Below, one piece after another: positions 3 through 27,091 of a stretch of 64,000 nucleotides of DNA. Source of the stretch: Methylomonas koyamae (GTDB lineage: Bacteria; Pseudomonadota; Gammaproteobacteria; Methylococcales; Methylomonadaceae); contig NZ_AP019777.1 of the NCBI RefSeq assembly GCF_019669905.1, positions 2,418,001-2,482,000 on the forward strand, given 5' to 3'. Each line of letters begins with the position of its first letter. Position 1 is the first letter of the stretch. The translations under genes and the position numbers were made by a program. The notes beneath the pieces were generated by a model. That model ran no database searches. It was not told where the DNA came from and saw only the letters and a program-made list of their open reading frames with translations.

Positions 3-3000
3 GACAACGCGGTCGACTGGTTGTATGGCGACTTCGGCACCGGCGGTAACGAAGCCGGCTCTGGCCGCGACCACTTGTTCGGCCAGGGCGGCAACGACCT
101 GCTGTACGGCGAAGGCAACGACGACTTGATCGAGGGTACTGCCGGATTCAACCAAAACGAGACCTCGGGCGGTGCCGGTAATCTGATCGATTTCGGCAAT
201 GCCGGCGACAATGCCGCTTTCGCGGCGCCGGCTGCAACCCCGGCCCCGGCGTTGCACGCAATCGATTACAGCAATAGCCGGGCCGCGGCCAGCTTGCCGG
301 ATTACGCCGTGCAGCGCGGCCGCTGGGCCGATCTGGCCGGCGCCGCCGGCGAAGACGGCTTGTCCGGCAGCGGCGGACTGTCCACCGATCCGGCAATTGC
401 GGTAGCGGCGTCCGGCTCGCAATTCATTGCCTGGACCGACACCCGCAGCGGCAACCCGCAAGTCTTGGTGGCGCAATTGGTCGGCGGCGCCTGGGTGCAA
501 CTGGGCGGCAGCGCCAGCGGCGATGCGCTCGGCGCCGGCGTGTCCAAAACCGTCGCCGAAGCGGCGCGGCCCAGCATTGCCATAGACGCCAGCGGCGCGC
601 CCGTCGTAGCCTGGACTGCCGAGCACAACGGCCAGCGCGACATTCGCGTGGCCCGCTGGAATTCCGCCGCCGGCACCTGGGAAGCCTTGGGCACCTCGCT
701 GGCCGAGGCCGGCATTTCCGCGACCGGTACTGCCGGCGCGGCCAAATTGGTGGTTACCGCTAACGGCCCGGTGGTCGCGTGGCTGGACGGCAGTGCCGGC
801 GCCCAGCGCCTGTATGCCCGCAGCTTCGTCGGCGGGGTCTGGCAGGAAAGCGCGGCCGGTTCGGCCAGCGGCAACGGCATCGCCGGCGGCACGCTCAGCG
901 CCGATCTGCGCGATCTGGCCCTGGCCAGCGACGGTAACCGGGTCGCTGTGGCCTGGAGCGAGATGGTGTCCGGCGTCCGCCAAATTTATCTGCGCGAACT
1001 GAGCGGCGGCGCCTGGAACGCGCTGTCCGGTTCGGCCAGCGGCAGTGGCGTCAGCGGCATCGCCGATCCGGACTTGGCCGGCAGCATCAGCCACAACGCG
1101 ATGCCGAGCTTGAGTTATTTCAACGGCCAGTTGTTCGCCGCTTGGCAAACCCATTCCGACCAAGGCGCCGCCGTCGCGGTGGCGACCTTTGCCAATACCC
1201 CGGCCCGCACTCTGGCGCTGGTCGATACCATCGCCGCACCGGAATTGCCGGCCTCGCCGTCGCTCAGCGCCGGCGGCGATGCTTTGCGTTTGTTGTGGGT
1301 GCGGCAACCGCTGGAAAATCAACCAACCGATCTGTACGCGATGCGCTACAACGGCAGCCATTTCGTTGCCGAATTGCCTGGCGAAGCCAGCCCCGGCGGT
1401 TTCAGCCGCAGCGGCGGTATCGCCACGCAACTGGTTGCCGCCACCGACGCAACCGGCCGGACCAGCGTGGCCTGGCTGGATGCGATCAGCGGCCAGCCGG
1501 AAATTCATGCCCGCGGCATGAGCGCGACGGTAAGCCGCACTTTCTACGCCAATAGCGTCACCGGCATTCAGGCGATTCTGGACGGCAACGATTTGGCCGC
1601 CGGCGACTTCATCGTCGTCAACGGCAGCGTCAACGGCGACGTAACGATTGCAGCCGGCGATGCCGGCGTGGCCATCGTCGGCGCTCCGGGTTCGCGCATC
1701 GTCGGTTCGGTGACGGTAGCGGCCGGGGCCAATAACGTCCTGCTGCAAGGTCTGGACATTTCCGGCACGGTGACGGTGCAAGGCGCCAACGGCTTTACCT
1801 TGACCGAATCCAAAGCCGGCGCGGTAACGCTGCAAGGCGGCGCCAACGCCCAGATCACCGCCAACCAATTGAGCGGCAATCTGACGCTGCAGGGCGCGGT
1901 CAACGCTGCGTTGATCGATTCCAACCGGATCAATGCGGCCACCGGCCTGGATCTGCAAGCCGGTGCCGCGGTCAGCAATTTGACCGTCAGCCGTAACAAT
2001 TTCCAAGGTACCAACGGCATCGCGTTAAACGCCGCAGCCAGCGGCCGCATCCGCGACAACAGCATCAGCGCCAGCGCGACCGGTCTGAATATCGCCGCTG
2101 CGTTCAGCGGCTTGATCGACGGCAACCGGATCGCCAATGCCGGCGTCGGCGTGCGCTACGATGCCGCAGCGGCATTGGCCGGCAACACCATCAGCAACAA
2201 CACGGTCGGCATTCGGACCACGGTGGCCGGCAACAGTACCGGTTTGGGTTTCGTGGCCGGTTCCGGCGTCAACGACTTGGTCGGCAACGCGACCGGCATT
2301 CAGGCCGTGGCCGCCCAATTCCAGCAACAGCACGTGCGCGGCGGCAACGTCGGCGTGACCGGCTCCGGCATTATCGGCGGCACCTCGTTGGATCTGGCCA
2401 ACCTGATCGAAGGCGCTGCTACTGGTATCGCCAATTTCACCGGTATCGTTCAATACAGCCGGATCAGCGGCAACGGCGTCGGTATCGACGTGACCTCGGC
2501 CATGAGCGGTTTGAAAGTCTGGCACAACCTGATTTACCGCAATACCACCGCGGCATTGCGGATCACCGGTGCCAACGATATCCGCATTTACCAAAACACC
2601 TTCTACGCGCCCAGCGGCGACAACATTCGGATTCAGGGCGCCAGCGCCAACGTCGAGATTCAGGGCAACATCCTGTGGGCGGAAGCCGGATACGACATTT
2701 ACGTCGCCAACGACTCGCAATCCGGCTTCTACAGCGACTACAACAATCTGTACAAAACCGGCAGCGGCAAACTGGTTTATTGGACCAAAGACTTCGCCGA
2801 CGTATTGGATTGGCAGGCCGACGTGGCCCGCTACGATTTGCATTCGATCGGCGCCACCGTGGTCAATCCGAAATGGGCGGAACCGCGTTTCGTCGACCGG
2901 GCGGCCGACGATTACCGCCTGTACGACGTGGTGGCCGGCTTGCGCTTCACCAGCCCGGACCTCGACGCCTCCAACGTCCTGCTCGACCAGGCGGTACCGC

Positions 3001-6000
3001 CGCATTACCTGAATCTGATCAACAACAGCGGCTTCGAAACCGGTCTGAACGGCTGGACCGTCAACAACGGCGGCGCCATCAAAACCGGTTCGCCGTCAGC
3101 TTACGAAGGTAGCCAGTATTTCAACGCCGGCAATATCGAGCAAGGCTTTGCCGAGCAAAGCATCAACCTATTGACGGCCGGATTCACGGTACAACAGATC
3201 GATTCCGGCCTGCTGGACTTAGCCTTCGGCGGCCGGGTCCGCGCCGCGGCCGAGGCGCCGCGCGATGCCGGTAGCGTGTCCTTGATTTTCCTCGACGCGG
3301 CCGGCAACGAATTGCGCCGGCAGGATGTCGAGGCGTTGAATACCGCCGACCGCTGGGAACTGGTCGGCGCCAGAGTTACCGCGCCGGTCGGCGCCCGCTT
3401 CGCGGTATTGCGTTTCGCCGCCGACCGCAACAGCGGCAGCAGCGACGACGTTTGGTTCGATACCGGCTTTGTCTACCAGGTGGCCGACAGTTACGTCGCC
3501 AATCTGGGCGCATACGGCGCCGGCACCCACGAGCCGGCGACCACGACCGCACCGCGCATCGAATTGCGCTTCCCGGACATGTACACCGATTGGGAGAAAA
3601 ACGAACCGGTGGCGATCCGTTGGGAAACACTGAACAATCTGGCGAATTCGCCGGTGCGCATCGATCTGTTGCAAGACACCGCCGACGGTCCGCGGCTTGT
3701 AACCAATATCGTCGCGTCTACCCCGGACGACGGCAATTTCATCTGGATTCCGGCCAACAGCGGTATCGACTTCGGTACCAAAGGCTTGCGCATCCAGGTC
3801 TCGCTGGTCAATGCGCCGGCGGTGATCGACCGTAGCCAGGAAACCTTCAGCGTACCGGAAGACGGCCAAAATTACTACGTCGACGACCAAAGCAACGTCG
3901 GCGATGCCTATACGCCGGGCGCGGTCGGCGACAACCGCAACACCGGCAAGACCGCCGCCACGCCGAAACCGAATCCGGTCAACGTGTTCCGCGCTTACGA
4001 TCTGAAAGCCGGCGACACGCTGTATATCGACACCGGCGATTACCCGATGATCGATCCGATCGCGGTGTCCGGCACCGTCGACGTCAGTCTGGTCGCGGGT
4101 CCGGGCATGGGCCGCGACGAGGGCTTCACCATCACCGGCCCGGCCGACACCAGCCTGATCGCCAAATTGTTCCCGGCCATTCCGGGCGACCGCAGCCGGG
4201 CTTTGATCGACTTGAACGACGCCGACTTCGTCAGCGTCAACCATTTGACCTTGCAAAATGCCCAGCGCGGCCTGTACGTTCACGACGGCTCCGACAGTTT
4301 CAGCGCCAGTTACCTGACCGCCAGCGGCCACGCCCAGCAGGGTATTTCTATCGCCACCGCCTCGCAGTTCGGCGATCTGGACCATCTGGCCAGCTTCAAC
4401 AACCAGGCCGGCGGCGTCGTGGTCAGCGGCAACATCCGCGCGCTGACCAATTCCGTGGCTTATGCCAATACCGGCGACGGTTTCAACGTCAGCGGCGCTA
4501 TCGAAACGGCCAGCGCAAACATCGCCTACAACAACAGCGATTGGGGCTTCGAGTTCAGCCAACCGGGCGCGGCGGCCATCGTCCGTAACCAGTCCTACAA
4601 TAACCGGGCCGGCATCCACGTCAGCAACAGCAGCGCCGGCATCGCCCGGATCGGCGACGACGATCTGGCGGCCGGCAACGGCAACCTGGTCTACAACAAC
4701 CGCGACGGCGGCATCTACGCCTACTACGGCGCGCTGGTGGCCGGCAACACGGTTTATGGCCATCTGACCAGCGGCGCCTGGGGCATTTACGGCTACAGCA
4801 ACGTCACCACTCGTTCCAACGTGGTCTACGGCAATACCCAGGGGATTTACGCCTGGTTCGGCAGCGTCGAAACCAATCGGGTTTACGCTAACAGCGCCGA
4901 CGGCGTGCGCACCGAGAATTCGGATGTGGTCGGCAACGTAATTTATTCGAATGCGGTCGGCTTGCGCGTCGGCCAGAATTACAACACGCCGCGTACCGGC
5001 CGTAACAACCTGATTTACGCCAATAGCCAAGCCGGGGCCTTGCTCAGCGGCGACCGTTTTACCTTTATCAATAACACCGTGGTGCAACCTCTGGGCGATG
5101 CGCTGCGGGTCAGCGACGCCAGCAACACCGGCGTGTTCAATAACATTATCGGTGCGGACACCGGTTATACCATCAGCGTGGCGTCCAACAGCCAAGTCGG
5201 TTTCCAAGCCGATTACAACTTGTTCCTGCCGCGCAGCTCCGGCGTATTCGGCCAATGGCAGGGCATCGACCGGGCCAACCTGACCAGTTGGCGCTCCGCC
5301 TCGTTCACCGACGCCAACAGTCTGGTGGCCGACCCGCATTTCGCCGACGCCGATGGTGCCGACAACCAATTGGGTTATGTCGATGTCACTCAAGACGGCC
5401 GCGACGACGATTTCCACGAAAGCAGCGCTTACGGCGGCTTTGCCGGCGGTAGCGGTTTGGCGCCGGTGCGTAGCACGACGACCAATCTGCCGGTCATGAT
5501 TGCCGCCTCGGCTTTTACCGCCACCGTGCAATCGGCTGCCATCGACCGCGGCCGCGCCAGCGACGCTTACGCCAACGAACCGGCGCCGAACGGCGGTTAC
5601 ATCAACATCGGTGCCTACGGCAACACGGCCCAGGCCGGCCGCAGCCCGGCGCAGTACATCACCGTGTTGTCGCCTAACGGCGGCGAACGCATCGGCCAGG
5701 ACAGCGCGGTCGAAATTCGCTGGCGTTCGTTCGGCTTCGGCGGCAACGTCAACATCGAATACCGCGGCGGCAGCGCTGGCGATTTCACCACGCTGGCCAG
5801 CGGCGAAGCCAACGACGGCAGTTTCAACTGGGCGGTGAATGCCGGCCTGTTCAACGCCGCCAGCGATTACCAAATCCGGATCAGTTCGGTCGACGTTCCG
5901 GCCATAGACGATGCCAGCGACAGTAATTTCTCGGTGATCGCCCCGATCACTTACTACTACGTCAACGACAATTCGCTGACCGGCGACGAATACACCAGCG

Positions 6001-9000
6001 CGGTCGGTAACGACGCCAACGACGGCTTGTCGCCGGACCAACCGAAGGCGTCGATCCGTGCAATTCTCGATACCTACGATTTGAAACCGGGCGACGTGGT
6101 GCTGGTCGATGCCGGCTTATACAGCCTGGGCACCAACATCTTTGTTACCGCCCAAGACAGCGGCGTAACGATTCGCGGTGCGGTGGAACACGAGACGCGT
6201 TTGGACCGTGGCAACAAGAACAGCGGCGCTTACGTATTCGAGTTGCAAGGAGCGGACGACGTCAGTCTGGAGCACTTATCGATCACCGGCGGTTACGGCG
6301 GCATCCAAGCGGCCAACGGCCAGGACAGCGACCACCTGAGCCTCATCGACAGCCGGGTGTGGAACAACAACTACGCGATCAGCATCGACACCAGCAACGA
6401 CTTCTTCGTACTGAGCGGCAGCGTGGTCGAATACAGCGCCAACCGCGGCGTCTACGTCAACGGCAGCGATGCCTTGATCGAAGGCAACGAAATCGCCCGC
6501 AACAGCGGCTGGGGCATCGACATCAGCGGCTCGCGCGGCCGGGTGCTGAACAACAGCGTCTACGCCAACAGCAGCGGCGGCATCAACGCCAGCGTCAACA
6601 ACGGCTGGAACAACCGCATACTGGTGCAAGGCAACCGTTCCTTCGACAACGCCAGCGGCACCAACATCGCCGGCTACTACAACAGCGAAGTGCGCGGCAA
6701 CGAAGTTTGGGGCAGCGCCTACGGCATCGCCGTCTACTACGGCGCGCAAGCCACAGGCAACCAAGCCTGGGGCAACACCACCGGTCTGTACGGCTACAGC
6801 AACGCCATCGTGCAAGACAACCGGGTCTGGGCCAACGGCACCGGCATCACGCTGTACTACGGCAGCACCGCCCAAGGCAACCGGGTTTACGGCAACAGCG
6901 GCGCCGGCGTCTACGTCAGCACCTACGACAACCTGGTGACCAACAACGTCATCGAAGCCAACGGCGGCGCCGGCGTGCAACTGGACGGCGCCTACCAATC
7001 CGGCAGCCGCACCCGGGTCGAAAACAACACCATCGTCGCCACCGGCAGCGCCTCGGCGATCCAAGTGCAGGGCAGCAGCACCAATATCCGCATCCGCAAC
7101 AACATCCTCGACGTGCGCGGCAGCGGCTATGCCCTGAACGTCGCCAGCGACAGCCAACAAGGCTACCTGAGCGACTACAACCTGTTCATGCTCGGCGCCA
7201 GCGCCAAACTGGCCTACTGGGAAGACCGGCCGTTCGCCAACCGCACCGACTGGTTCTACGAAGTCGGCCAGGACCGCAACAGCCTGACCGCCGACGCCCG
7301 CTTCATCGACATCGACGGCGCCGACGGCGTGGTCGGCTGGGACGGCAGCGTAGTCACGGGCAGCGCGCGCATCGTCGACGACGGCGATCCGACCTTCGCC
7401 ACGACCGGCAGTTGGACCACCGTTGCCAGCAACGGCAGCACCCAGCCGCGCGGCGGCGACGTCCGCAACAGCGCGGCCGGCGACGGCAGCAGCCAGGCCA
7501 GCTGGAGCTTCGACGGCCTGAGCGCCGGCTACTACCGGGTGGCGGCGACCTGGCCCTACCAATGGCAAAGCTCGCCCGGCTTCAGCGGCAACTCCAACTA
7601 CCGCATCTACGACGGCGACGTCGTGGTCGGCTCCGATGTGGTCAACCAATATGCCAATGCCGCCTCGGCGTCCAACGGCTATAGCGCCGACGGCAGCAAC
7701 TGGGACGTACTGGGCGTAGTGCGCATCAGCGGCGCCAGCCTGAAAGTCGTGCTGGACAACCTGGCCAACGGCATCGTGCTGGCCGACGCAGTGCGGATCG
7801 AACGCCTGAACGGCGACTTCGGCCAGGACGACGACCTGCACCTGCAAAACAGCTCTCCGGCCATCGACCGCGGCGACCCGAACAGCCCCAACCTGAGCGA
7901 ACCGCGGCCGAACGGCGGCCGGATCGACCTGGGTGCCTACGGCAACACCAGCCAAGCCAACGTCAGCCCGGATCCGTTGATCCAGATTCTGAGCCCGAAC
8001 GGCCTGGAGAAATTCGAAACCGGCGTGCCGGTCACCGTCAACTGGCGCAGCGACGGCCTGTTGCCGTACGACAGCGTGTTCCTGCTGGATACCGGCCAAG
8101 ACACCGGCACCGGCGTCGACAACTGGCAGGCACAACAAGGCTACCGGACCGACGGCAACAACAACTACGGCAGCATTGCCGCCGGTACCGCCATCGACCT
8201 GAGCGGCGCCGGCGCCAATGCCGCGCCGGAAGCGGTCTACCGCAGCTACGCCTACACCCAAAGCGGCGTCGGCAGCAAACTCGGCTACACCATTGCCGCT
8301 CAAGACGGCGGCTACCAACTGGTGCTGCACTTTGCCGAACCGAGCAACGTTGCCATCGGCAGCCGGCTGTTCGACATCGTCGCCAACGGCACCACCATTG
8401 CGACCAACGTCGACGTGCGCGCCCTGGCCGGCGGCATCAACAAAGCCCTGGTGCTGAGCTACGACATCAACGTAACGGGCGGGCAAGGCCTCAACGTCGA
8501 ACTGGTCAACCGCAGCAACAGCAACGCCGCCTTCCTGAACGGCCTGGAACTGCGCCAAGCCAACGCCAACGGCGTCGCCAACCCGGTACTGAGCCTGGAA
8601 GCCTCCACCGACAACGGCGCCAGCTGGACCACCGTTGCCACCGGCTTGACCATGGACCGTTACGGCCGCGGCCAGACTACCTGGACGCCGACCGACGAAA
8701 CCGTCGGCAACACGGCCTTGCTGCGGATCAGCGCGACGATCAACCCGATTAGCGGCAGCATCACGGTCAACGACACCAGCGACGAAGGCTTTTTGATCGC
8801 CAACGCCGGCAAGGCGTATTACGTCAACGACGGCAGCACGGTTGGGGACGAATACACCACGGCGGTAGGCGACAACGCCAACAGCGGCAAAGACCCGAAC
8901 CGGCCGATGGCCAGCTTGGCGGCCTTGCTGCGGGCTTACGACCTGGATGCCGGCGACGTGATCTACGTCGACAGCGGCAACTACAGCCTGGCGACCAACA

Positions 9001-15000: not shown

Positions 15001-18000
15001 ACGTCAACGTCGGCAACGTCGCGCCGAGCTTAACCTTGACCGGAGCGGCCAACGTGGATTTGGGGCAATCTTACGCAGTGACTTTCTCGGCGACCGACCC
15101 CGGTACCGATACCGTCTCCGCTTGGCTGGTCAATTGGGGCGACGGTTCGACGACCGCTTTGGCCGGTAACGTCTCAGGCGCCAGCCATACCTACTCGCAG
15201 GGCGGGCAAATGGCGGTTACCGTCACGGCCACCGACGAAGACGGCAGTTACGTTTCGTCGCCGTTGGCCGTCAAAGTCATCGTGCCGAACCGGGCGCCGG
15301 TGGTGCCGGCCGGGCAAACCGCCAGCACCAATGAAGACCAGTCCGTGACCTTTACGTTGGCCTACGGCGATCCCGACGGCGATGCGTTGACGGTGGATTT
15401 CGCCAGTTTGCCGCAACACGGCAGCCTGAGTGGCTTCAACCCGGCAACTCGCCAGTTGACTTATACGCCGGACCAAAACTTTAACGGTAGCGACGGCTTC
15501 CGGATCACGGTCAGCGACGGCAAGGGCGGTACTACCAGCGCCGATATCAACCTCAATGTGGTGCCGGTAAACGACAACCCGGTGGCCGGCAACGATAGCT
15601 ATAACGTGCATGGCGGCCAAACCCTGAACATCGCGGCGCCGGGCCTGCTCGCCAACGACAGCGATGGCGACGGCGATGCGTTGCAGGTGCAGTCGATCGA
15701 TATCACCGGTGTCCAAGGCGTCGTCGACGCCTCCCCCGACGGCCATTTCAGCTTCAAGCCGAGCGCGGGATTCAGCGGCGATACCAGCTTCAAGTACACG
15801 GTGATCGACGGTTTCGGCGGCAGCGCCCAGGGTATTGTTACGATCAGCGTGACCAATACCGCGCCGGTGGCCGTCAATGACAGCTACACGATGCGTCCTG
15901 GCCAAACCCTGAACATCGCGGCGCCGGGCCTGCTCGCCAACGACAGCGATGGCGACGGCGATGCGTTGCAGGTGAAATCGATCGATATCACCGGTGTCCA
16001 AGGCGTCGTCGACGCCTCCCCCGACGGCCATTTCAGCTTCAAGCCGACCGCGGGATTCAGCGGCGATACCAGCTTCAAGTACACGGTGAGCGACGGTTTC
16101 GGCGGCAGCGCCCAGGGTATTGTTACGATCAGCGTGACCAATACCGCGCCGGTGGCCGTCAATGACAGCTACACCATGCGTCCTGGCCAAACCCTGAACA
16201 TCGCGGCGCCGGGCCTGCTCGCCAACGACAGCGATGCCGACGGCGATGCGTTGCAGGTGAAATCGATCGATATCACCGGTGTCCAAGGCGTCGTCGACGC
16301 CTCCCCCGACGGCCATTTCAGCTTCAAGCCGACCGCGGGATTCAGCGGCGATACCAGCTTCAAGTACACGGTGAGCGACGGTTTCGGCGGCAGCGCCCAG
16401 GGTATTGTCACGATCAGCGTGACCAATACCGCGCCGGTGGCCGGTAACGATAGTTACAGCGTACAAGCGGGTCAGACCTTAACCATTGCGTCACCGGGAC
16501 TGTTGGTCAACGACAGCGATGCCGATGGCGATACGTTGTTCGTGCAATCGGTCGATACCGCCGGTTTGCAGGGCAGCTTGAATTATGCGTTCGATGGTAA
16601 TTTCAGTTTCACGCCAAACGCCGGCTTTAGCGGTGCGACCAGCTTCAAGTACACGGTTAGCGACGGTCTAGGCGGTAGCGCGGTAGGTGTTGTGGCAATC
16701 GATGTCGCTGCGCCCGCTACGTTGAACGTGACCTCTTTCACTCAGACCGATTCCGGTCTCAGGGTGCGTTTCAGCAGGGCTCTGGACGTCAGTGTCTTGA
16801 ATCTTTACAACGGCGAACCCACCGGCTTGGGCGCGCCGGATCTGACCTTGATTGGCCCAGACGGCAAGCCGGTAGTAGGCAGCCTGATTCTCGACAACGA
16901 TCATGCCGGTTTCACCTTTCTGCGCAGCGGCGGACCGTTGGCGGCAGGTAACTATGGTTTGACGTTGGTTTCCAGTGGCGCTGGTTTCAAAGACTTGAGC
17001 GGATTGCTGCTGGACGGTAACGGCGATGGCTCGGCCGGCGACAACTATCTGCATGCTTTCACGGTAACATCGAAGGGCGCGGCGGTGTTGTCGGTCGGCG
17101 AAATTGCTCGCGGCCCAGGACAAACTCTGGCTAACCCGTCGAATGGCTTCAACTTCCCGATCACGCTGGAAAATGCCGCCGGCGCCACGAGCCTGGCGTT
17201 TACGTTGAACTACAATCCGGCTTTGCTGACTGTGAACGGTTTTTCCGGCGGCAATTTGCCGGCTGGCAGTCAGGTCGTGACCGATACCACGGTAGCTGGC
17301 CAACTGAGGGTAACGATAAACGCGGCCGTGGCATTGCCGGCCGGCAAGCTGATATTGGGTAATCTGGAGGCGACAGTGCCGACGGCGGCGGTTTACGGCG
17401 CCAAGGACATGCTACGTTTGAGCGATGTATCGCTCGACGGTGGCGCCCGGCAGTTGAAAACCGACGACGGTCTGCATGTGGTGGCCTTCATCGGCGATGT
17501 CACTGGCGACGCCAATTACACCACGCTGGATTTCCAACGCATGAATCGGGTTCTGCTCGGGCAGGATAGCGGTTTCGGTGCCTGGCCGCTGGTCGATCCG
17601 TTGATCGTCGGCGACGTCAATCCGAACGGCAAATTGCAATCGGCGGATGCGCTAAAACTGGCCTACCAAATCGGCGGTACGCCGCAGAAGGACATTCCGC
17701 CGATACCGGCCGGCCTACCGCCGCTGGTATTCGCCGGCGCGGACCCTAAAGTCAGTTTGGGCACGGTCTCGGCAATTGCCGGCAGTCGGGTGTCGGTACC
17801 GGTCACTATCGATACCACGGCCGGTTTGGAGTCGATCCAAATGACCGTGCGTTACGATGCGCAGAAATTGGGCTTGGTCGAGGTGCAAAAAACCGCATTG
17901 ACCGCCGGCTTCGTTTACACCGTGGTGCAGAATAATCCGGGCGAACTGCGCATCGATGCCAGCGCGCTAAAACCCTTGGCCGATGGCAATGGCGTCTTGT

Positions 18001-18329: not shown

Positions 18330-18343
18330 TAGCATAATTGGCT

Positions 18344-18410: not shown

Positions 18411-18573
18411 CACTGCACCGCCGCTAGGGCAGGGCGGCTAGCCGTTTTGTGGTATAAGTCGTTAATGTTTTGGCGGTGATATTAGTTGGCGCATTTTATG
18501 CTAAGCAATGGTGCCAAGCGGCTACCGACGGGCCATACCAGTTTTTCAAAAGAATCGATCAAACGGAGTTTTT

Positions 18574-19194
18574 ATGCTTAACAGACATGCCAAATTCAGT
18601 TCCTTGTTATTTCCGCTGTTAGCTGCCGCGGCCTTGGTATTGGCCGCACCGGCGGCACGGGCCGCGATCAGCATCACCCCGCACGATGTGGCGGGCGCTC
18701 CCGGCAGCAATGTCGACGTTACCTTCGACTTCGATTTCGGCGCTAACACTTTAATTTCCTCTTTTGATTTGGGTCTGGTGTTCGATCCTGCGTTATTGAC
18801 CTTGCTGGACGGCGATTTTTACCAGAATGGCGCGCCGGTTGATGCACTGAACGGGCTTGATGCTGCCGGCACTTTGATACCGAATTTCGACCTGAGTAAC
18901 GGCTCCATCGGCGTAGCCTGGTATGCATTGGATTCCAACTTTCAACCGTTACCGCCGCTGGCTTTGTCGGGAACTTACTCGCTGCTGTTGAGCGTCCAAC
19001 TGATCGACAATTTTCCGATCGGTCAAGATACCTCGGTGGCGCTAACGTTGGACGCAAGCGATGAAAACTTGAATCCGATCGACACCATATCCAAAATTGC
19101 CAATGTTGCGGCAGTACCGCTACCGCCATCTTTGCTGATGATGCTGTCCGGCTTGGGCATGTTGGCCGTTTCCCGAGTCCGCCGTTCAGTTTAA
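18574..19194 (+). CDS. Exported cohesin-like protein with VPLP/PEP-CTERM-type C-terminal sorting signal
   Basis: 206 residues. I chose ATG 18574 because it has a GGAG site 6 bases upstream and gives a clean signal peptide (basic start, then a leucine/alanine-rich core ending in ARA-A); the upstream extension to 18508 looks untranslated. The mature part is one beta-rich domain resembling a cohesin fold, with a SSFDLGLVFDPALL stretch. The C terminus is VPLPPSLLMMLSGLGML followed by SRVRRSV: a VPLP motif, a hydrophobic helix and a basic tail. This is the exosortase-recognised pattern known as PEP-CTERM/VPLPA-CTERM. It lies between the giant gene and the export genes, and its fold resembles the cohesin-like modules at the end of the giant protein, so an accessory surface role is plausible (inference). 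No exosortase gene is in the window. Confidence 0.82.
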   Translation: MLNRHAKFSSLLFPLLAAAALVLAAPAARAAISITPHDVAGAPGSNVDVTFDFDFGANTLISSFDLGLVFDPALLTLLDGDFYQNGAPVDALNGLDAAGTLIPNFDLSNGSIGVAWYALDSNFQPLPPLALSGTYSLLLSVQLIDNFPIGQDTSVALTLDASDENLNPIDTISKIANVAAVPLPPSLLMMLSGLGMLAVSRVRRSV

Positions 19195-19200
19195 CCGGAC

Positions 19201-21105
19201 ATGAGTGGCTCCGCCCAGCGCGGATCCGCTGCCGTAGTCGGAACGGTCAGTCCCGAATCCCGCGCGGATTCGGGATTTTCCAGCGCCGGTGCCGCACAGG
19301 GCGCGGCCGATGACTTTTGGTCGCAGTTGGTCCATGCCCAAACCTCCGAACAATTATGCCGTGCCTGGTTAGGCATTCTGTGCCAATGGATACCTAGGGC
19401 GCAGTCCGGTATTTTGCTGTTGCACGACGAAGGCGACAATTATGCGCCGGCCGCGGTCTGGCCCGATCCGCAGCGCGATATGTCGTTTCTGGCCGAAATC
19501 GCCCAAGACGCATTGGTCGAACAGCGCGGCATCGTCCGCAACGATGCCGCCGGCTTGACCCAATGTGCCTATCCCCTGCTATCCGCCGAAGAAACCTATG
19601 GCGTCGTCGTGTTGCACGTAGCCGGCGGCGGCGATGCGGCGATGCGCGACGCTTTACGCTTACTGCACTGGGGCGCGGGATGGTTGGTGGGTTTGTTCGA
19701 CCGTCGCCATCTGTTGGATCGGGACCTGCGCCTGAAGCAGTCCGCGTTATTGCAGGATTTACTGCTCGGCGTATTGGCTGAACCGGCCCCGGATGACGCT
19801 GCACGCTGGATCGTCAACCGCCTGGCCGCTGCGGTGCCGTGCCGGCTTGCTGTCATCGGCCATTGCGACGCGTCCGGCCAGCACATCGAATTGGCTAGCG
19901 TGTCGGCCAGCGCCAGTTTCGAGCCGCGTTCCAACCTGATGGCCGCCGCGCGCGAAGCGATGCGGGAAGCCTTGTTGTCCGGCCAGGCCTTGGCCCATCC
20001 TGCCGCCGAAACCGGCGATAGCGCTACAATCTCTTTTAATGGCGTCGCCGATTATTGCCGGGAAGCCGAAGCGCCGGCCGCGGTAGTACTGCCGCTCAGC
20101 CAGCGCGGGCGCATGGTCGGGGCCTTGCTGCTGGACTTGGCTGCCCAACCCGCCCCGGCCGAGCTGGAATTTTTCCGCACGCTGGCATTGGCGTTGGCGC
20201 CGGCGCTGGATTTACACGCGCTCGCCGCCCGCGGTTTGGCGGCTCACGGCCGCGACAGCCTGAAGCGGATGCTGGCCGACTGGCTGGGTCCTAGTCATCC
20301 GGGTTTGAAATTTGCCGGCACCTTGGCCGTGATCGGTTTGTTGCTGGCGGCGACGGTACCGGTCGATTTTCGGGTGCGGGCGCCGGCGACGGTGGAAGGC
20401 AAGGTGCAACGCGTGGTCGCCGCGCCGTTTGCCGGCTTTATCCAGGAAGCCTATTTGCGGGCCGGAGATGCGGTCAAGCAGGGCGACATCTTGGCCCGGC
20501 TGGACGAGCGCGAATTGCGTTTGGAAGAATCGCAATGGGTGGCTCAGGCGGAACTGGCCGAACGTAAACTGCGCGAAGCGATGGCGAAAGGCATCGCCGT
20601 GACAGTCAGGCTGGCGCAAGCCGAGCTCGACGAAGCCCAGGCGGAACTGGCTTTCGTGCGCAGCAAGTTGGCGCGGGCCACCGTCGTCGCGCCCTTCGAC
20701 GGCGTCATCGTCAAAGGCGATCTGTCGCAACAGCAGGGCGCACCGGTCGAACAAGGTAAAGTCTTGTTCGAGGTGGCGCCGATGTCGGCCTGGCGGGTGG
20801 TGTTGAAAGTGGACGAGCGCGACATCGTTCATGTCCGCGAAGGTGAGCAGGGCGAATTGGTGTTGACCGGCTTGCCCGGCGAGCGTTTCGCGCTGAAGGT
20901 CAACAAGGTTGCGCCGGTGGCGTTGGCGGAAGACGGCCGTAACAGTTTCCGGGTCGAAGCGGCCGTGCTGGGCGAGAGCCGCGGCGTACAGCCGGGCATG
21001 GAAGGCGTCGGTAAACTGGCAGCCGGCGAGCGGACCTTACTCTGGATTGCACTGCACCGGGTGTTCGATTGGGCGAGGTATACGCTATGGACACTGGGCT
21101 GGTAA
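19201..21105 (+). CDS. GAF-domain HlyD-family membrane fusion protein
   Basis: 634 residues, beginning 6 bases after the previous stop. The N-terminal 370 residues are cytoplasmic, with two GAF-like segments (about 50-170 and 190-340; LLLHDEGDNYAPAAVWPD in the first). One membrane helix follows (about 373-393), then a periplasmic HlyD-type half: a biotinyl-lipoyl piece (VVAAPFAGFIQEAYLRAGD), a helical hairpin (about 440-500), the second lipoyl piece (ATVVAPFDGVIVKGDLSQ) and a beta-barrel (VLKVDERDIVHVREGEQG). HlyD proteins bridge an inner-membrane exporter to the outer membrane; the GAF extension is unusual and could sense a cytoplasmic ligand. Its last 19 bases overlap the next gene, so the two are translationally coupled. 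The exact cargo is inferred from the neighbouring giant gene. Confidence 0.85.
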   Translation: MSGSAQRGSAAVVGTVSPESRADSGFSSAGAAQGAADDFWSQLVHAQTSEQLCRAWLGILCQWIPRAQSGILLLHDEGDNYAPAAVWPDPQRDMSFLAEIAQDALVEQRGIVRNDAAGLTQCAYPLLSAEETYGVVVLHVAGGGDAAMRDALRLLHWGAGWLVGLFDRRHLLDRDLRLKQSALLQDLLLGVLAEPAPDDAARWIVNRLAAAVPCRLAVIGHCDASGQHIELASVSASASFEPRSNLMAAAREAMREALLSGQALAHPAAETGDSATISFNGVADYCREAEAPAAVVLPLSQRGRMVGALLLDLAAQPAPAELEFFRTLALALAPALDLHALAARGLAAHGRDSLKRMLADWLGPSHPGLKFAGTLAVIGLLLAATVPVDFRVRAPATVEGKVQRVVAAPFAGFIQEAYLRAGDAVKQGDILARLDERELRLEESQWVAQAELAERKLREAMAKGIAVTVRLAQAELDEAQAELAFVRSKLARATVVAPFDGVIVKGDLSQQQGAPVEQGKVLFEVAPMSAWRVVLKVDERDIVHVREGEQGELVLTGLPGERFALKVNKVAPVALAEDGRNSFRVEAAVLGESRGVQPGMEGVGKLAAGERTLLWIALHRVFDWARYTLWTLGW

Positions 21106-23267
21106 CTGCCGATTCGACGCTGGGCAGCCAGCTGGTCAACAGCCATTGGTACCGGGTCGGCGGCTTGGCGCCGCGCTTGCGCGACACCTTGCGCATCCAT
21201 CCCCAATACTGGCGCCGGCAGTTGTGGTACGTAGTCGAAGACCGCATCAATGCCCGCTACCACCGTTTCGACCGTCAGGCATACCGCATCATCCGCTTAC
21301 TGGACGGCCGTACCACGCTGCAACAACTGTGGCTGAGACTGGCAGCCGAAGCCGGCGAGCATTTGCCCAGCCAGGAAGAGATACTGAGTTTACTCGGCCA
21401 ATTGCACAGCCTGGATTTATTGGCTAGCGACACCTTGCCGGACTTGGGCGAATTGGCCGGCCGCGGCCGCAGCCAGACATGGCGCAAGCGGGCGGCGAGC
21501 TATTTCAACCCGTTGGCGATCAGAATCCCGCTGTTCGACCCCGACCGTTTTCTGGAGCGCGCCGCCAAGCGGCTGGCACCGTTGCTGAACTGGCGCGGCG
21601 CGGCGCTCTGGCTGGCCTGTGTGCTACCGGCCCTGGTATTGGCCGCGTCGCATTGGCGAGAGCTGACCAATAATTTCGGCGAAAGGGTTATGGCCCTGGA
21701 TAACCTGCTGATGCTGGCGGTACTGTTCCCGTTGGTCAAAATTCTGCACGAACTCGGCCATGGCTTGGCCTGCAAGCGCGGCGGCGGCGAGGTTCACGAT
21801 TTGGGCATCATGCTGTTGCTGTTTTTGCCGGTGCCGTATCTGGAAGCCTCCAGTTCCTGGACCTTTCCCGACAAACGCGCCCGGATGCTGGTCGGTGCCG
21901 CCGGCATGCTGGTCGAAGTCTGGCTGGCGGCGCTGGCGTTCTACCTGTGGCTATGGCTGCAGCCGGGTATGGCCAAAGCCCTGGCGTACGACTTCACGGT
22001 GCTGGCCAGCGTCACTACCGTGTTGTTCAACGCCAATCCTCTATTGCGTTACGACGGCTATTACATCGCCAGCGACGCGCTGGAAATTCCCAATCTGGCG
22101 CAACGCGCCGGCCGTTGGTGGGCGTATCTGTTCGAACGCCGTCTGCTCGGCCGGCGTTACGCCGATTCGCCGGTGCAAGCGCCGGGAGAAGCGTTCTGGT
22201 TCACGTTGTATTCGCCGTTGTCGTTTCTGTACCGGACCTTCGTCATGTTCTCCATCGCCGTGTTCGTCGCCGGGCAATATTTTGCGGTCGGCGTATTGAT
22301 CGCCGTGTGGAGTATCGCGGCCAGCATTGCGCTGCCGTTATGGCGGGCGCTTACCTGGCTGGCGCGAAATTTCGCCGGCGGCGGCATCGACAGCCGGCCG
22401 CGGCGGGTGATCTTGACGCTGGCCGCCGGGCTGGGTTTGTTCTTGTTCGCGCTGCCGTTACCGCACCATACCCAAGTCGATGGCGTACTATGGTTGCCGG
22501 ACAGTGCCGTGGTCAGGGCGGGCCAAACCGGATTTGCCGAACGGGTTTCGGCGGCCAGCGACAGCGAGTTGCAGCCGGGCGAAACCGTCCTGGAATTGGC
22601 CGATCCCGGTCTGGCGGCCGAATTGGCGGCACAAACCGCCCGCACCGAGGCCGCGCAAGTGCGTTACGATGCCGCCCGGTTGGAAGACCCGGCCGCCGGC
22701 GAACGGTATGCAGCGGAATTGCGCCGCGAACAAAAAGCCCTGGCCCATTTGGCCGAGCGAAATGCGCGGCTGACCGTAAAAAGCGCGAGCGGCGGCCGGC
22801 TCTGGCTCAGCCAAAGCGAGGACATGCCCGGCCGCCACTTTCGCCAGGGCGACGTGCTCGGTTACGTGATTCCGCCGGCACCGCCGCGGATCCGCATCAT
22901 CGTCGACCAGTCGGACGAAACGCTGATCCGCGAACACACCCGTTCTGTGCGGGTAAAGCTGCCGTTTGCGGCGGCCAGTTTGTGGCCGGCGACGATACTG
23001 CGCAGCGTGCCGGCCGCTTCCAACGAATTGCCAAGCGCCGCGTTGGGGCGTTCCGGCGGCGGCGAAATCGCCACCGATCCGCGCGACGACAGCGGCCGGC
23101 GTGCGTTGACCAGCCATTTCGAATACGAGCTGGGATTGCCCGACGATTTTCCTTACCGCTTGATCGGCAGCCGGGTCAGCGTCCGTTTCGAGCATCCGTT
23201 GGAGCCGGTGGGCAAGCGCATTTGGCGCGGCTTACGCCGTCTGTTTCTGGCGCATTTCCACTCCTGA
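21087..23267 (+). CDS. PqqD-like / M50-like metalloprotease-fold / HlyD-like membrane protein
   Basis: 726 residues from ATG 21087, preceded by GGGCGAGG; an upstream TTG (21069) is possible but less likely. Residues about 50-115 look like a PqqD-type winged helix (FRLLDG-like YRIIRLLDGRTTLQQLWLRL). A polytopic membrane domain follows, carrying the zinc motif HELGH (residues 221-225) and the second-site motif NANPLLRYDGYY typical of M50/site-2-protease relatives. After the last helix (about 440-455), a periplasmic lipoyl/HlyD-like portion begins at HTQVDGVLWLPDSAVVRAGQ. Related proteins usually sit beside HlyD proteins in export clusters. It overlaps the upstream HlyD gene by 19 bp and is followed closely by a SecA paralogue. 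Proteolytic activity is possible because the HExxH motif is intact, but it is unproven. Confidence 0.85.
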   Translation: MDTGLVTADSTLGSQLVNSHWYRVGGLAPRLRDTLRIHPQYWRRQLWYVVEDRINARYHRFDRQAYRIIRLLDGRTTLQQLWLRLAAEAGEHLPSQEEILSLLGQLHSLDLLASDTLPDLGELAGRGRSQTWRKRAASYFNPLAIRIPLFDPDRFLERAAKRLAPLLNWRGAALWLACVLPALVLAASHWRELTNNFGERVMALDNLLMLAVLFPLVKILHELGHGLACKRGGGEVHDLGIMLLLFLPVPYLEASSSWTFPDKRARMLVGAAGMLVEVWLAALAFYLWLWLQPGMAKALAYDFTVLASVTTVLFNANPLLRYDGYYIASDALEIPNLAQRAGRWWAYLFERRLLGRRYADSPVQAPGEAFWFTLYSPLSFLYRTFVMFSIAVFVAGQYFAVGVLIAVWSIAASIALPLWRALTWLARNFAGGGIDSRPRRVILTLAAGLGLFLFALPLPHHTQVDGVLWLPDSAVVRAGQTGFAERVSAASDSELQPGETVLELADPGLAAELAAQTARTEAAQVRYDAARLEDPAAGERYAAELRREQKALAHLAERNARLTVKSASGGRLWLSQSEDMPGRHFRQGDVLGYVIPPAPPRIRIIVDQSDETLIREHTRSVRVKLPFAAASLWPATILRSVPAASNELPSAALGRSGGGEIATDPRDDSGRRALTSHFEYELGLPDDFPYRLIGSRVSVRFEHPLEPVGKRIWRGLRRLFLAHFHS

Positions 23268-23291
23268 CCGGCCGGCCCGCGGAGCGCTACT

Positions 23292-25337
23292 ATGAACGAC
23301 GCCAGGATTTCGAATGTTGGGCAATGGCCGCCTGCCCAGGTTCGTTTGGCGGCGCGTATTTTTCCGGAACGGGCCGATACCGCCGATTCCGGCTTGGACC
23401 GCTGGGTGACGGGGTGGTGGCAAGGCAAACTGCGCACCTGGTATCCGCGCCAACGCGAACGCCTCCGCTTCCGCGACGCGGTGGAAGCCGAAGCCGCAGG
23501 CTTGGGGCTGGAACGGTGGGACGACGCCAGGCTGCAACGCGAAAGCCGGCCGGCGGCCAGAAACGCCTTCGTCGGTAAAGATTTCGCCAGCGGAGCGCTG
23601 GCCTTGGCACTGGTGCGCGAAGCGGCCCGGCGCCGGTTGGGGCTGTTGGCACATCCGCCGCAATTGCTGGCGGCCTGGAAATTGTTATGCGGGCACTTAA
23701 TCGAGTTCGATACCGGCGAAGGTAAAACTCTGACCGCCGCGCTGGCGGCCTGTCTGGCGGCGCTGGCCGGCGTGCCGGCGCACGTGGTGACGGTCAACGA
23801 TTATCTGGCGCAACGCGACGCCGAGAAAATGCTGCCGCTGTTTGCCTTTTTCGGTTTGAGCGTCGGCGTGGTCCACGGCGGCGTGGCCCAAAACGACCGG
23901 GCACATCAATATGCCCAGGATTTGACCTACTGCACCAATAAGGATTTGGTGTTCGATTACCTGCGCGACCGGGTCAACGCCGGCGGCATCAACAGCCCGG
24001 CGCAACTGGCGGTTCGGCGTTTGCACCAGCCGCAGCGCGGCGAGGAGCGGCTGCGGCTGCGCGGCTTGCATTTTGCGATTGTCGACGAGGCCGACAGCAT
24101 ATTGATCGACGAAGCGCGCACGCCGTTGATATTGTCGGCACTGAGCGATCGCGGCGCCGACCGGGATGTGTTTGCACAGGTATTGAATGTTGCCGAACAA
24201 TTGCAGCAAGATTTGCACTTCCGGCTGATCGGCGCGCAGCGGATACCGGAATTGAGCAAGGAAGGCCGCCTGTACTTGGCGCAATTGGCCGAAGACTACC
24301 TGGCCGAGTCAGGATCGCGGCGTAAAGTCCTGGACGAATTCTGGCAGCTGGATTGGGTCCGCGAGCATTACGTGCTGCAGGCGTTGCGGGCGATCTACGT
24401 CTACCGCCGCGACCAACATTACGTCGTGCTGGACGGCAAGATCGTGATCGTCGACGAGTTCACCGGGCGTCTGTTGCCGGACCGCAGTTGGGAGCAAGGT
24501 CTGCACCAACTGGTCGAGGTTAAGGAGGGCTGTGCCGCCACCGGCCAAAACCGGACGCTGGCGCGGCTGACCTACCAAGTGTTTTTCGGCCGTTACCTGC
24601 GTTTGGCCGGCATGAGCGGAACCTTGCGCGAAGTCGCGGCGGAGATGGCGGCGGTGTACCGGGTGCCGACCTTGCGGGTCGAACCGAACCGGCCCTGCCA
24701 GCGCATCGAACGGCCGAGCCTATTGCTGCGCGACGCCGAGGCCAAACACGCGGCGATTGTCGATGAAGTCCGGCAGATTTTGACGCAGGGCAGGGCGGTA
24801 TTGATCGGCACGCGCTCGGTGATGGCCTCGCTGGCGATTTCCCGCGCCTTGGCCGGCGCCGGTATCGTCCACAAGGTCCTGAATGCTTTGCAGGACGAAG
24901 ACGAAGCCAGTTTGGTGGCCCAGGCCGGCCAACCCGGTGCGGTTACCGTGGCCACCAACATGGCCGGCCGCGGTACCGACATCCCGTTGGCCCCGGCGGT
25001 AGCCGAACGCGGCGGTTTACACGTCGTACTGAGCGAATGGCACGAGTCGGCGCGGATCGACCGCCAATTGTTCGGCCGCTGCGCCCGCCAAGGCGATCCG
25101 GGCAGTTGCCGCGCCATCGTCGCGTTGGACGACGAACTGCTGCAGCATTACGCTTCGGCGCTGGCCAACTGGACCGCGCTGCAATGGCCGGGATCGCCGC
25201 CGGCGTCCGCGGTCAAGCTGCTCAGGCGGACGATGCAGCGCAAGGCCGAGGCAGCCAATGCCGCGCAACGGCGGGCGACGATGCGGCAGGACCGGCAGAT
25301 GCGCCGGCAATTGGCGTTTTCCGGCGCCACGGAATGA
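23292..25337 (+). CDS. SecA-like translocation ATPase (short paralogue)
   Basis: 681 residues, with GGAG 8 bases before the ATG. SecA signatures appear in order: Walker A TGEGKT at residues 141-146, VHVVTVNDYLAQRDAE-like AHVVTVNDYLAQRDAEKM, YCTNKDLVFDYLRDR, Walker B with DEADSILIDEARTPLI, VIVDEFTGR, GMSGT, NMAGRGTDI and an arginine-finger region QLFGRCARQGDPGS, where housekeeping SecA has GRSGRQGD. It is about 220 residues shorter than normal SecA. There is no C-terminal cysteine-rich zinc/SecB-binding tail, and the N terminus before the motor is atypical. It is encoded between an M50/HlyD protein and another HlyD protein. A specialised motor feeding the giant neighbour into an export channel is the best explanation; it is not the housekeeping secA. 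Confidence 0.9.
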   Translation: MNDARISNVGQWPPAQVRLAARIFPERADTADSGLDRWVTGWWQGKLRTWYPRQRERLRFRDAVEAEAAGLGLERWDDARLQRESRPAARNAFVGKDFASGALALALVREAARRRLGLLAHPPQLLAAWKLLCGHLIEFDTGEGKTLTAALAACLAALAGVPAHVVTVNDYLAQRDAEKMLPLFAFFGLSVGVVHGGVAQNDRAHQYAQDLTYCTNKDLVFDYLRDRVNAGGINSPAQLAVRRLHQPQRGEERLRLRGLHFAIVDEADSILIDEARTPLILSALSDRGADRDVFAQVLNVAEQLQQDLHFRLIGAQRIPELSKEGRLYLAQLAEDYLAESGSRRKVLDEFWQLDWVREHYVLQALRAIYVYRRDQHYVVLDGKIVIVDEFTGRLLPDRSWEQGLHQLVEVKEGCAATGQNRTLARLTYQVFFGRYLRLAGMSGTLREVAAEMAAVYRVPTLRVEPNRPCQRIERPSLLLRDAEAKHAAIVDEVRQILTQGRAVLIGTRSVMASLAISRALAGAGIVHKVLNALQDEDEASLVAQAGQPGAVTVATNMAGRGTDIPLAPAVAERGGLHVVLSEWHESARIDRQLFGRCARQGDPGSCRAIVALDDELLQHYASALANWTALQWPGSPPASAVKLLRRTMQRKAEAANAAQRRATMRQDRQMRRQLAFSGATE

Positions 25338-26212
25338 CCAAAACCAATGAGGTTAACCAGAGAATGAAGCAAGCTACAGCGATGTCGGGCGGACGTTACC
25401 GATGGGTTTCCGGATTACTGTTGGCTGCCTGGATACCGGCGTTCGCGGCCGAGGTGCCAGGGCAAGCCACCTTCGATTGCCTGATCGAGCCGTCGCAGTT
25501 GCTCGAAATCCGCAGCCCGGTCACCGGCTTGATCGACCAAGTCCACGCCGGCCGCGGCGATACGGTCAAGCGCAATACGCCGTTGGTCAGCCTGGAATCC
25601 AGCGTCGAGCGTGCCGCGGCCGAACTGGCCGGGGTCCGGGCGGCGATGAACGGCCCATTGGCCGTCGCCGAAAGCCGTCTGGCCCATGCCATTCAAAGCT
25701 TGAACCGGCGAAACGCGCTGGCGCAGAAGAATTACAGCTCGGCGCAGGAACGCGACGATGCCGAGGCGGAAAAAAACGTCGCCCAGGCGGAGTTGCTGTC
25801 CGCCCGCGAGAGCAAGCAGGTGGCCAAGCTCGAACTGGCCTACGCCAACGCCCAATTGGGGCTGCGGGTAATCCATAGCCCGATCGACGGTATCGTCACC
25901 GAACAATTGATGTACCCCGGGGAAGTGGTCGAAGTCGGCGGTACCACGACTACAATTTTGAAATTAGCCCAGATCGATCCGTTACGGGTGAAAATGATAT
26001 TGCCTTTGGCCTATTACACCCGGGTCAAACCGGGGATGCGCGCCGATATCGTCCCGGAAGCGCCGCTGGAGGGCCGCTATAATGTGGCGATCAATCTGGT
26101 GGACCAAGTCATCGACGCCGCCAGCGGCACGTTTCAGGTCCGCGCCGATTTATCCAATCCGTCCGGCAACCTGCCCGGCGGGGTCAAATGCAAGGCGACG
26201 CTGGCGTTGTAA
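25334..26212 (+). CDS. Periplasmic HlyD-family adaptor protein
   Basis: 292 residues from ATG 25334, which overlaps the SecA-like stop as ATGA. A second candidate, ATG 25364, has GAGG 11 bases upstream and gives a shorter signal peptide. The segment VSGLLLAAWIPAFAAEV is a signal sequence. The mature protein has the membrane-fusion layout: lipoyl half (LEIRSPVTGLIDQVHAGRGD), a coiled-coil hairpin rich in Ala, Glu and Lys (about residues 100-180), the second lipoyl half (VIHSPIDGIVTEQLMYPGEV) and a beta-barrel. It is the fourth tightly packed gene of the export cassette. No transmembrane helix is seen apart from the signal, so it would be a soluble periplasmic partner of the two membrane-anchored HlyD-like proteins. 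Confidence 0.87.
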   Translation: MTKTNEVNQRMKQATAMSGGRYRWVSGLLLAAWIPAFAAEVPGQATFDCLIEPSQLLEIRSPVTGLIDQVHAGRGDTVKRNTPLVSLESSVERAAAELAGVRAAMNGPLAVAESRLAHAIQSLNRRNALAQKNYSSAQERDDAEAEKNVAQAELLSARESKQVAKLELAYANAQLGLRVIHSPIDGIVTEQLMYPGEVVEVGGTTTTILKLAQIDPLRVKMILPLAYYTRVKPGMRADIVPEAPLEGRYNVAINLVDQVIDAASGTFQVRADLSNPSGNLPGGVKCKATLAL

Positions 26213-26290
26213 TCGATATCCGCAGCAATTCCGGCGGCGGGTCCGGCTAAAATCACACGCAGTAAAATAACTTAACCAGGAGAATGAGCA

Positions 26291-27091
26291 ATGGCAACGC
26301 AATTACTGATTTACGAAAAAGTCGTACCGGTTTCCAAGGACCGCCACACCGGCTGGTCGGTCAAGGCCGGCAACGAGTATTCTTTTGCCAAACACGTCAA
26401 TTCGGTGCCGATTTTGGCCGTCGAGTTCGCCAGTGCGGCCGACGAATACACTATCGTATTTGCCGGTAACGAAGAAGGCACGATGCCTATCGTGCTGCTG
26501 GGGATCAAGGAACGGGAAAACCTGTTCGTCAACGAAGCCAACCACTGGGACGCCAAATACGTGCCGGCCTTTCTCCGCCGTTATCCGTTCGTGTTCTCGG
26601 AAAGCGAAGACCGCTCGACGTTTACCTTGTGCATCGACGAGGATTTCGTCGGCTGCAACCAAGAGAATAAAGGCGAGCGCCTGTTCGATGCCGAAGGCGA
26701 AAGAACCCAATATCTGGACAACATGCTGCGTTTCGTCAACGAATACCAGGGCCAAAACCTGAGAACCCAGGCATTTTGCCAGAAACTGCGCGAACTGGAT
26801 TTGCTGGAGCCGATGCAGGCCGAATTTACTTTGACTTCCGGCCAACGTTCGCGCCTGGCCGGATTCTTCGCGGTAAACCGCGAACGCCTGAAACGCCTGG
26901 CCGACGAGCAAGTGATCGATTTGTTCAAACTCGACGAATTGGAATTAATTTATCTGCACCTGCAATCGATGCGCAACTTTACCGGCATGTTGGAACGCAG
27001 TGCAGCGCACAATCCGGCGCCGGCCGCCGACGGCGACAAACCGGCCGAGGAAGCGGCTACCGGCCATGCGCCGGACGAAAAATTGCATTGA
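26291..27091 (+). CDS. SapC-family protein
   Basis: 266 residues; ATG 26291 is preceded by AGGAG. The opening VPVSKDRHTGWSVK, the FAKHVNSVPILAVEF block and the FLRRYPFVFSE block match the SapC family, first noted beside S-layer genes of Campylobacter fetus. There is no signal peptide or membrane helix, so it is predicted to be cytoplasmic. The C-terminal tail (from about residue 238) is low-complexity and rich in Ala and Pro. It is 78 bases after the periplasmic adaptor, probably in the same transcription unit. The family has no firmly established biochemical role. Its association with S-layer or giant surface proteins supports the idea that the whole cluster builds a surface layer (inference). 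Confidence 0.85.
   Translation: MATQLLIYEKVVPVSKDRHTGWSVKAGNEYSFAKHVNSVPILAVEFASAADEYTIVFAGNEEGTMPIVLLGIKERENLFVNEANHWDAKYVPAFLRRYPFVFSESEDRSTFTLCIDEDFVGCNQENKGERLFDAEGERTQYLDNMLRFVNEYQGQNLRTQAFCQKLRELDLLEPMQAEFTLTSGQRSRLAGFFAVNRERLKRLADEQVIDLFKLDELELIYLHLQSMRNFTGMLERSAAHNPAPAADGDKPAEEAATGHAPDEKLH

Follow-up and report, generated by a model that had tools for sequence, protein, structure and literature searches.

A gene module with a SecA-like ATPase and an M50-HlyD protein, a likely exporter of LEPR-XLL giant proteins

Type I secretion systems (HlyB-HlyD-TolC) and tripartite efflux pumps have an HlyD-type adaptor in common, and accessory SecA2 systems combine a large surface substrate with a SecA paralogue that has motor domains and a preprotein clamp. 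Both features recur in a group of genes in Methylomonas koyamae, found in a 64,000-bp stretch of contig NZ_AP019777.1 (positions 2,418,001 to 2,482,000; this whole stretch is hereafter the window). The group, hereafter the module, follows the gene for a giant exoprotein and codes for a GAF-HlyD protein, a protein with PqqD-like, M50 peptidase and HlyD parts (M50-HlyD), a SecA-like ATPase and a further HlyD-like adaptor. Unlike type I systems and tripartite pumps, the module has no ATP-binding cassette (ABC), resistance-nodulation-division or major facilitator superfamily transporter; it has a SecA-like ATPase, a leader at the N terminus of the presumed substrate, and three adaptors that differ from one another, one of them joined to GAF domains and another to a protease. 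In contrast to accessory SecA2 systems, its SecA-like protein has no scaffold, wing or finger, is accompanied by no SecY2 and is tied to M50-HlyD. M50-HlyD itself resembles the leader readers and M50 proteases of ribosomally synthesized and post-translationally modified peptides (RiPPs), such as those of the daptide (NF041824) and YydH/LiaK (NF058609) families, in that one protein holds an M50 domain and, by fold, a domain of the PqqD type or RiPP recognition element (RRE) type; however, it scores below the cut-offs of these families, is fused to HlyD and is linked to a giant protein.

The exporter appears to be undescribed, as no description of it was found in the open-access PubMed Central (PMC) literature. 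The same literature yielded no published function or machinery for LEPR-XLL (NF012209), the family to which the N terminus of the giant belongs. LEPR-XLL itself occurs in two papers, once in a giant protein of Vibrio that also has RTX domains (PMC10868602) and once as the label of a transcript (PMC9611531).

Co-occurrence and gene order across genomes

We consider it likely that these genes form an export module dedicated to LEPR-XLL giants. The link of the components to each other and to the giants is well supported, and the module probably carries the giants out of the cell. Two partly overlapping samples were searched: a class sample of 229 genomes (228 besides the window's own) and a phylum sample of 349 (348 others). 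SecA-like proteins were called in the class sample at 374 bits or more, where the next matches, canonical SecA proteins, reached at most 344, and in the phylum sample where the best match in a genome was at least about 360 bits (canonical, at most 340). Close relatives of M50-HlyD ("close M50") were called at 541 bits or more in the former, one of them split across two contigs, and at 443 bits or more in the latter (next match, 374); the phylum-sample genome lists were compiled by hand from the match tables. With the window's genome included, 12 genomes of the class sample have the SecA-like protein, 17 a LEPR-XLL protein and 16 a close M50. With it excluded, here and in the genome counts below unless stated, the SecA-like protein is accompanied by M50 in 11/11 genomes (0.7 expected) and by LEPR-XLL in 9/11 (0.8 expected), and close M50 by LEPR-XLL in 12/15. 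The totals in the phylum sample, the window's genome included, are 35, 41 and 39, respectively, with all three in 29 genomes; there, with that genome excluded, the SecA-like protein occurs with M50 in 33/34 genomes and with LEPR-XLL in 28/34, and it was found in 33 of the 38 other genomes with a close M50.

A profile scan of genome contigs for M50 gave more than 594 matched stretches, the best 80 of which, with 10 loci added from the class sample, make up 90 loci holding an M50 gene. In 80 of these the three genes share a strand and stand in the order GAF-HlyD, M50, SecA-like, with median gaps between matched regions of 16.5 and 8 bp. In six of the 90 the SecA-like gene is absent: in L093, L105, L109 and L146 the sequence stops with M50 or shortly beyond it, and L121 and L129 lack the gene despite ample sequence. 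GAF-HlyD is absent from L099, L104, L131 and L152, where the sequence begins no more than about 420 bp from M50. The distances among SecA-like proteins follow those among their M50 partners (r 0.918, 56 loci; none of 2000 permutations reached this value). Giant-like open reading frames (ORFs), defined as at least 600 aa and passing a composition filter devised in the present analysis, lie in 42/80 loci as against 2 of 20 arbitrary 20-kb control regions. Of 99 loci, a few of which are flank pieces without the module, 19 have a TolC-type ORF, as against 1/20 controls; seven of these ORFs overlap the start of GAF-HlyD by 4 bp and one, in G077, shares 4 bp with the end of the SecA-like gene. In at least 30/80 loci the SecA-like gene is followed by another HlyD-type ORF; this is a minimum, since the search models derive from other members. 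By their record titles the loci come from Alpha-, Beta-, Gamma- and Deltaproteobacteria, Nitrospira and one metagenome-assembled Omnitrophota genome (GAF-HlyD and M50 part). The co-occurrence that the earlier note had put forward as a test was therefore found, in both samples for the SecA-like, M50/PqqD and LEPR-XLL proteins and in the synteny set for GAF-HlyD with M50 and the SecA-like gene. These counts also rule out a chance neighbourhood.

Some genomes hold several SecA-like/M50 pairs: there are three in G240 (C1, C25, C29), each adjoined by a LEPR giant, and two in G233 (C1), where a LEPR giant adjoins one.

The giant's leader and the components of the module

The giant's ORF begins at C1:2404050, which lies 13,950 bp upstream of the window, and totals 10,759 codons. 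Its N terminus had been guessed to be of the LEPR-XLL type; it does match NF012209, at 30.6 bits (cut-off 17), and is the single match in the genome. The first 80 residues are basic and include the motif LEQRLLLS, and a simple hydropathy scan found no hydrophobic signal peptide there (highest 15-residue Kyte-Doolittle mean, 0.57). Further on, the giant has mid-protein RTX repeats, beta-helix, malectin, cadherin-like, Big_9 and PKD domains and, near its C terminus, two cohesin-like stretches, with what we take, by eye, to be a dockerin-like stretch between them.

The leader recurs in other loci. Among six plasmid records, chosen from 25 listed of 132, five have a giant gene annotated upstream of the module, and all five products have the LEPR-XLL motif in their N-terminal part; three are not named as such. 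In the sixth, from Pseudohalocynthiibacter, the giant of the module is probably encoded by an upstream open frame that has no annotation and runs over at least 2,424 codons (L163:1-7272). In 14 inspected loci, the start of a giant-like ORF is visible seven times, and six of these ORFs have the motif or a close variant; the seventh, in L127, is on the opposite strand. Moreover, the residue that follows LEPR-x-LL varies with the machinery. In a tally of 48 LEPR loci, a subset of all LEPR matches, which keeps one match apparently in the wrong frame (L244), it is Ser in 38, Ala in two and Asn in one where the genome has a close M50, Asp in 5/5 where the genome has only a distant M50, and Ser in the two loci without any M50. 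By the family labels of the genomes, two families (f109 and f193) hold both kinds of leader, each fitting its own machinery. The second subtype, with LLD or LFD replacing LLS and a distant M50-HlyD, is seen in G224 (L073) and also in G177, G259, G273 and G394; none of these five genomes gave a SecA-like match. Next to the distant M50-HlyD of G224 there is one OEP gene, along with two HlyD genes.

The SecA_DEAD, preprotein-binding and P-loop domains were detected in 63/63 SecA-like relatives, whereas SecA_SW, the wing/scaffold domain, was detected in 1/63 and gave no match in the window's protein. The motif RQG was found in 54 of 57 SecA-like proteins, and the tail after it measures 74-84 residues in these, as against 311-343 in 19 canonical SecAs, and the alignment to Bacillus subtilis SecA chains (762-802 residues) stops at about residue 612. 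From the short tail, the missing SecA_SW and the end of the alignment it follows that most of the scaffold is gone, as are wing, two-helix finger and C-terminal linker. The two motor domains are kept, as is the preprotein clamp, and the protein ends within the first scaffold helix. In SecA, the two-helix finger inserts into SecY. An AlphaFold2 model of the SecA-like protein has a predicted local distance difference test score of 89.4 and a predicted template modelling score of 0.89. In a tree with the 19 canonical SecAs, which held no SecA2 proteins, all 57 SecA-like proteins form one separate clade (support 0.985), and the cut-offs of the SecA2 families TIGR03714, TIGR04221, TIGR04397 and NF012136 are not reached (340-443 bits as against 725-1100). 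A disrupted housekeeping SecA is ruled out by this clade and by the full-length SecA at C1:1528206. Current annotation does not recognize the gene as one family: in the six plasmid records it is called a prepilin peptidase, a DEAD/DEAH box helicase, a hypothetical protein or SecA.

In M50-HlyD, the M50 domain of the window's protein scores 26.7 bits (cut-off 27.2) and the HlyD part 19.0 (22.2). The catalytic residues H222, E223 and H226 and residues N318, P319 and D324 are invariant across 65 relatives; we take the former to form the HExxH motif and the aspartate to be the third ligand. A fold search with 727 modelled residues found the winged-helix RRE fold for the PqqD domain, and in the model this domain folds like the RiPP leader readers; the M50 membrane part does not appear among the best matches of that search. 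Three findings go beyond the earlier note: this fold, the loss of C-terminal SecA domains from the SecA-like protein, and the cohesin/PEP-CTERM gene described below.

Layout of the locus and neighbouring genes

The features of the locus are collected in Table 1. The order giant, GAF-HlyD, PqqD-M50-HlyD, SecA-like, HlyD, SapC on one strand is as had been described, and so are the overlaps of 19 bp (21087-21105) and 4 bp (25334-25337) and the 24-bp gap ahead of the SecA-like gene (23268-23291).

Table 1. Features of the giant gene and the module (positions in the window)
Feature	Position	Strand	Basis or remark
Giant exoprotein, C-terminal 6,108 codons of 10,759 aa	1..18329 (open from base 3)	+	ORF joined to upstream DNA
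Tandem array, 285-bp unit x 3.9, within the giant's cadherin-like part	15579..16681	+	
PEP-CTERM-like small protein, 228 aa, weak cohesin similarity	18508..19194	+	both similarities below Pfam cut-offs
GAF-GAF-transmembrane-HlyD adaptor, 634 aa	19201..21105	+	Pfam/NCBIfam GAF and HlyD; transmembrane segment by eye
PqqD/RRE - site-2-type protease (HELGH ... NPLLRYD) - HlyD adaptor, 726 aa from ATG	21087..23267	+	
SecA-like ATPase, 681 aa	23292..25337	+	SecA_DEAD 272 bits, preprotein-binding, P-loop
HlyD-like adaptor, 292 aa, signal-peptide-like N terminus by eye	25334..26212	+	4-bp overlap with SecA-like gene
SapC family protein (PF07277)	26291..27091	+	241 bits

The gene for the PEP-CTERM-like protein, between the giant and the operon, had not been mentioned before. 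Its product is possibly an anchor partner; two exosortase matches were found in the genome. Cohesin-like domains lie both in the giant (window 17748-18038) and, weakly, in this small protein, and with the dockerin-like stretch they may form a cohesin-dockerin surface anchor.

SapC genes were found in 14/80 loci and DUF3467-like ORFs in 20/80 (L078-L157). The DUF3467-like protein, of about 105 aa, often lies ahead of GAF-HlyD (L059:14868-15176, L060:5078-5398, L062:11561-11878; Pfam-tested in L060); that it is a chaperone is a guess. GGDEF, GGDEF-EAL or histidine-kinase genes are present in the three loci scanned for such neighbours. In G106 (L062:388-11514), a ShlB/FhaC-type transporter of two-partner secretion and large ORFs separate the LEPR giant from the module. 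Elsewhere in the window, an OEP (TolC-family) ORF lies about 24 kb downstream on the opposite strand (51522-52895), with no link to the module seen, and positions 30628-33309 code for a molybdopterin enzyme, either a NasC-like assimilatory nitrate reductase or formate dehydrogenase-like, that carries a BFD domain at its C terminus; an EAL gene and a histidine-kinase gene adjoin it.

Proposed route, alternative explanations and significance

The reading that we favour, a dedicated export module, starts from the giant's basic N-terminal LEPR-XLL leader, which the sequence shows directly and in which a simple hydropathy scan found no hydrophobic signal peptide. The RRE-like PqqD domain of M50-HlyD would read the leader, as its fold and the covariation of leader and machinery suggest, and the SecA-like ATPase would clamp and feed the unfolded chain. 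The inner membrane would be passed by way of either SecYEG or the M50/HlyD complex, the periplasm would be crossed in a tube of three HlyD-type adaptors, and the chain would leave through a TolC-type channel, an exit suggested by the TolC-type genes of some operons. Cutting the leader or releasing the product may fall to the site-2-type protease, which has kept its catalytic residues. We put forward this complete series of steps tentatively. It is also possible, although we would stop short of asserting it, that the module represents a new type of secretion system, with a RiPP-type reader, a finger-less SecA motor, an M50/HlyD/TolC conduit over both membranes and at least two coevolving leader/reader subtypes.

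Several observations weigh against this reading. The SecA-like protein occurs without LEPR-XLL in 2/11 class-sample genomes (G008, 75% complete, and G179, 95%) and in 6/34 of the phylum sample, and LEPR-XLL proteins form the wider set, with no SecA-like match in 7/16 class and 12/40 phylum genomes that have them. Nine of the 40 are without a close M50, of which eight have a distant one, and the LEPR genomes G213, G076 and G429 gave no M50 match at the thresholds used, in a first pass that scored only three or four candidates per genome. Close M50 without a match in the SecA-like range was found in G230, G236, G290, G404 and G548 of the phylum sample and in G052, G094, G190 and G206 of the class sample; in G404, a genome of two contigs, the LEPR giant, HlyD, M50 and GAF-HlyD lie together and the SecA-like gene is absent, and G548 likewise shows the remaining operon with a LEPR giant. 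In G081 the SecA-like and M50 genes are on separate contigs, with no M50 adjoining the SecA-like gene. The homologues in G236 and Seongchinamella unica (L125) are without the GEGKT, DEAD and RQG motifs and keep their position in the operon (L258:8742-10694 and L125:11934-14111; L125 is counted among the 80 ordered loci). The PqqD domain of the window's protein scores below the Pfam cut-off (22.4 bits as against 23.4) and was matched at an E value of 0.01 in 43/65 relatives. The giant is upstream in only 27 of the 45 loci with at least 5 kb of upstream sequence, and downstream in seven more. TolC is missing from most loci, the window's operon included, and about 21 OEP ORFs lie elsewhere in the genome. 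Finally, since the 80 stretches retained from the scan are the closest of more than 594, the synteny count is silent on distant M50 relatives. The SecA-less and ATPase-dead systems imply that the SecA-like ATPase is not the motor of every such system; in these, either its place is taken by the housekeeping SecA or no such motor is needed. Of the SecA-powered, non-ABC route proposed in the earlier note, a conserved module tied to LEPR-XLL giants, with TolC-type genes in some operons, is supported. That the SecA-like protein powers transport and that the M50 and HlyD proteins form the inner-membrane path are proposals, and the evidence is against a universal role for the SecA-like protein.

The alternative that fares best, which we regard as doubtful but serious, is a system of the SecA2-only type, in which the giant passes through ordinary SecYEG, with the SecA-like protein as a specialized motor or receptor helped by the housekeeping SecA, and M50, HlyD and TolC process it and move it across the periplasm. 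The earlier note was right that the operon has no ABC exporter (Pfam/NCBIfam scan) and that no SecY2 is present, as a profile scan found one SecY in the genome, which also has two SecA_DEAD proteins, the full-length SecA and that of the operon. Its premise that accessory SecA2 systems use SecY2 was, however, incomplete. SecA2-only systems use the housekeeping SecYEG, so that the missing SecY2 does not argue against SecYEG here. Besides the single SecY, the AlphaFold2 model is closest in rmsd to SecY-engaged SecA (6itc, 3.3 Å; 5eul, 3.1 Å), which would also suit SecYEG, and genomes in which the SecA-like protein is absent or ATPase-dead could use the housekeeping SecA. Against this alternative stand the loss of scaffold, wing and finger and the lack, in a simple scan, of a hydrophobic signal peptide in the giants examined (N-terminal hydropathy was tabulated for 26 of the 48 LEPR loci, one strand read).

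We think it unlikely that M50-HlyD, GAF-HlyD and TolC alone form the exporter and that the SecA-like protein is an optional accessory for the longest substrates. Loci without the SecA-like gene do exist, and the longest LEPR ORF per genome has a median of 6372 aa with it (37 genomes) and 3709 aa without it (18 genomes; p 0.037), but this effect is weak, carries no correction for relatedness and suffers from ORFs cut at contig ends, and the SecA-like protein accompanies most close M50 proteins of the phylum sample. Less likely still is an ordinary type I system, encoded elsewhere, that exports the giant while the module modifies, processes or anchors it. The RTX repeats in mid-giant and an LssB-type ABC gene with an OEP ORF nearby (C1:867692-873079) would fit; however, this ABC, the sole one above the LssB cut-off in the genome, is about 1.5 Mb from the operon, ABC-size ORFs, recognized by motif, are not enriched near modules (3/99 loci as against 4/20 controls), and the conserved element is N-terminal. 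Another giant-like ORF, of at least 1,681 codons, lies about 45 kb from that ABC (G000:C1:914955-920000, L170) and may be exported by a type I system. It is very improbable that the module matures and exports RiPP-like peptides and lies beside the giants by coincidence. The RRE fold and the similarity of M50 to the daptide (NF041824, 161.8 bits) and YydH/LiaK proteins would fit; against it stand a daptide score below the cut-off of 300 and a strong tie to LEPR giants with matching leader variants (small precursor genes were not searched for).

LEPR-XLL proteins, whose open frames reach 19,427 codons, are among the longest proteins known from bacteria. The module accompanies their genes, and the PMC literature gave no described exporter for them; annotation at present scatters the module under various names. 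If a dedicated export module is indeed what these genes form, it would be the missing exporter of the LEPR-XLL giants, in which SecA would be reused outside its usual role and leader recognition of the RiPP type would be linked to protein secretion.

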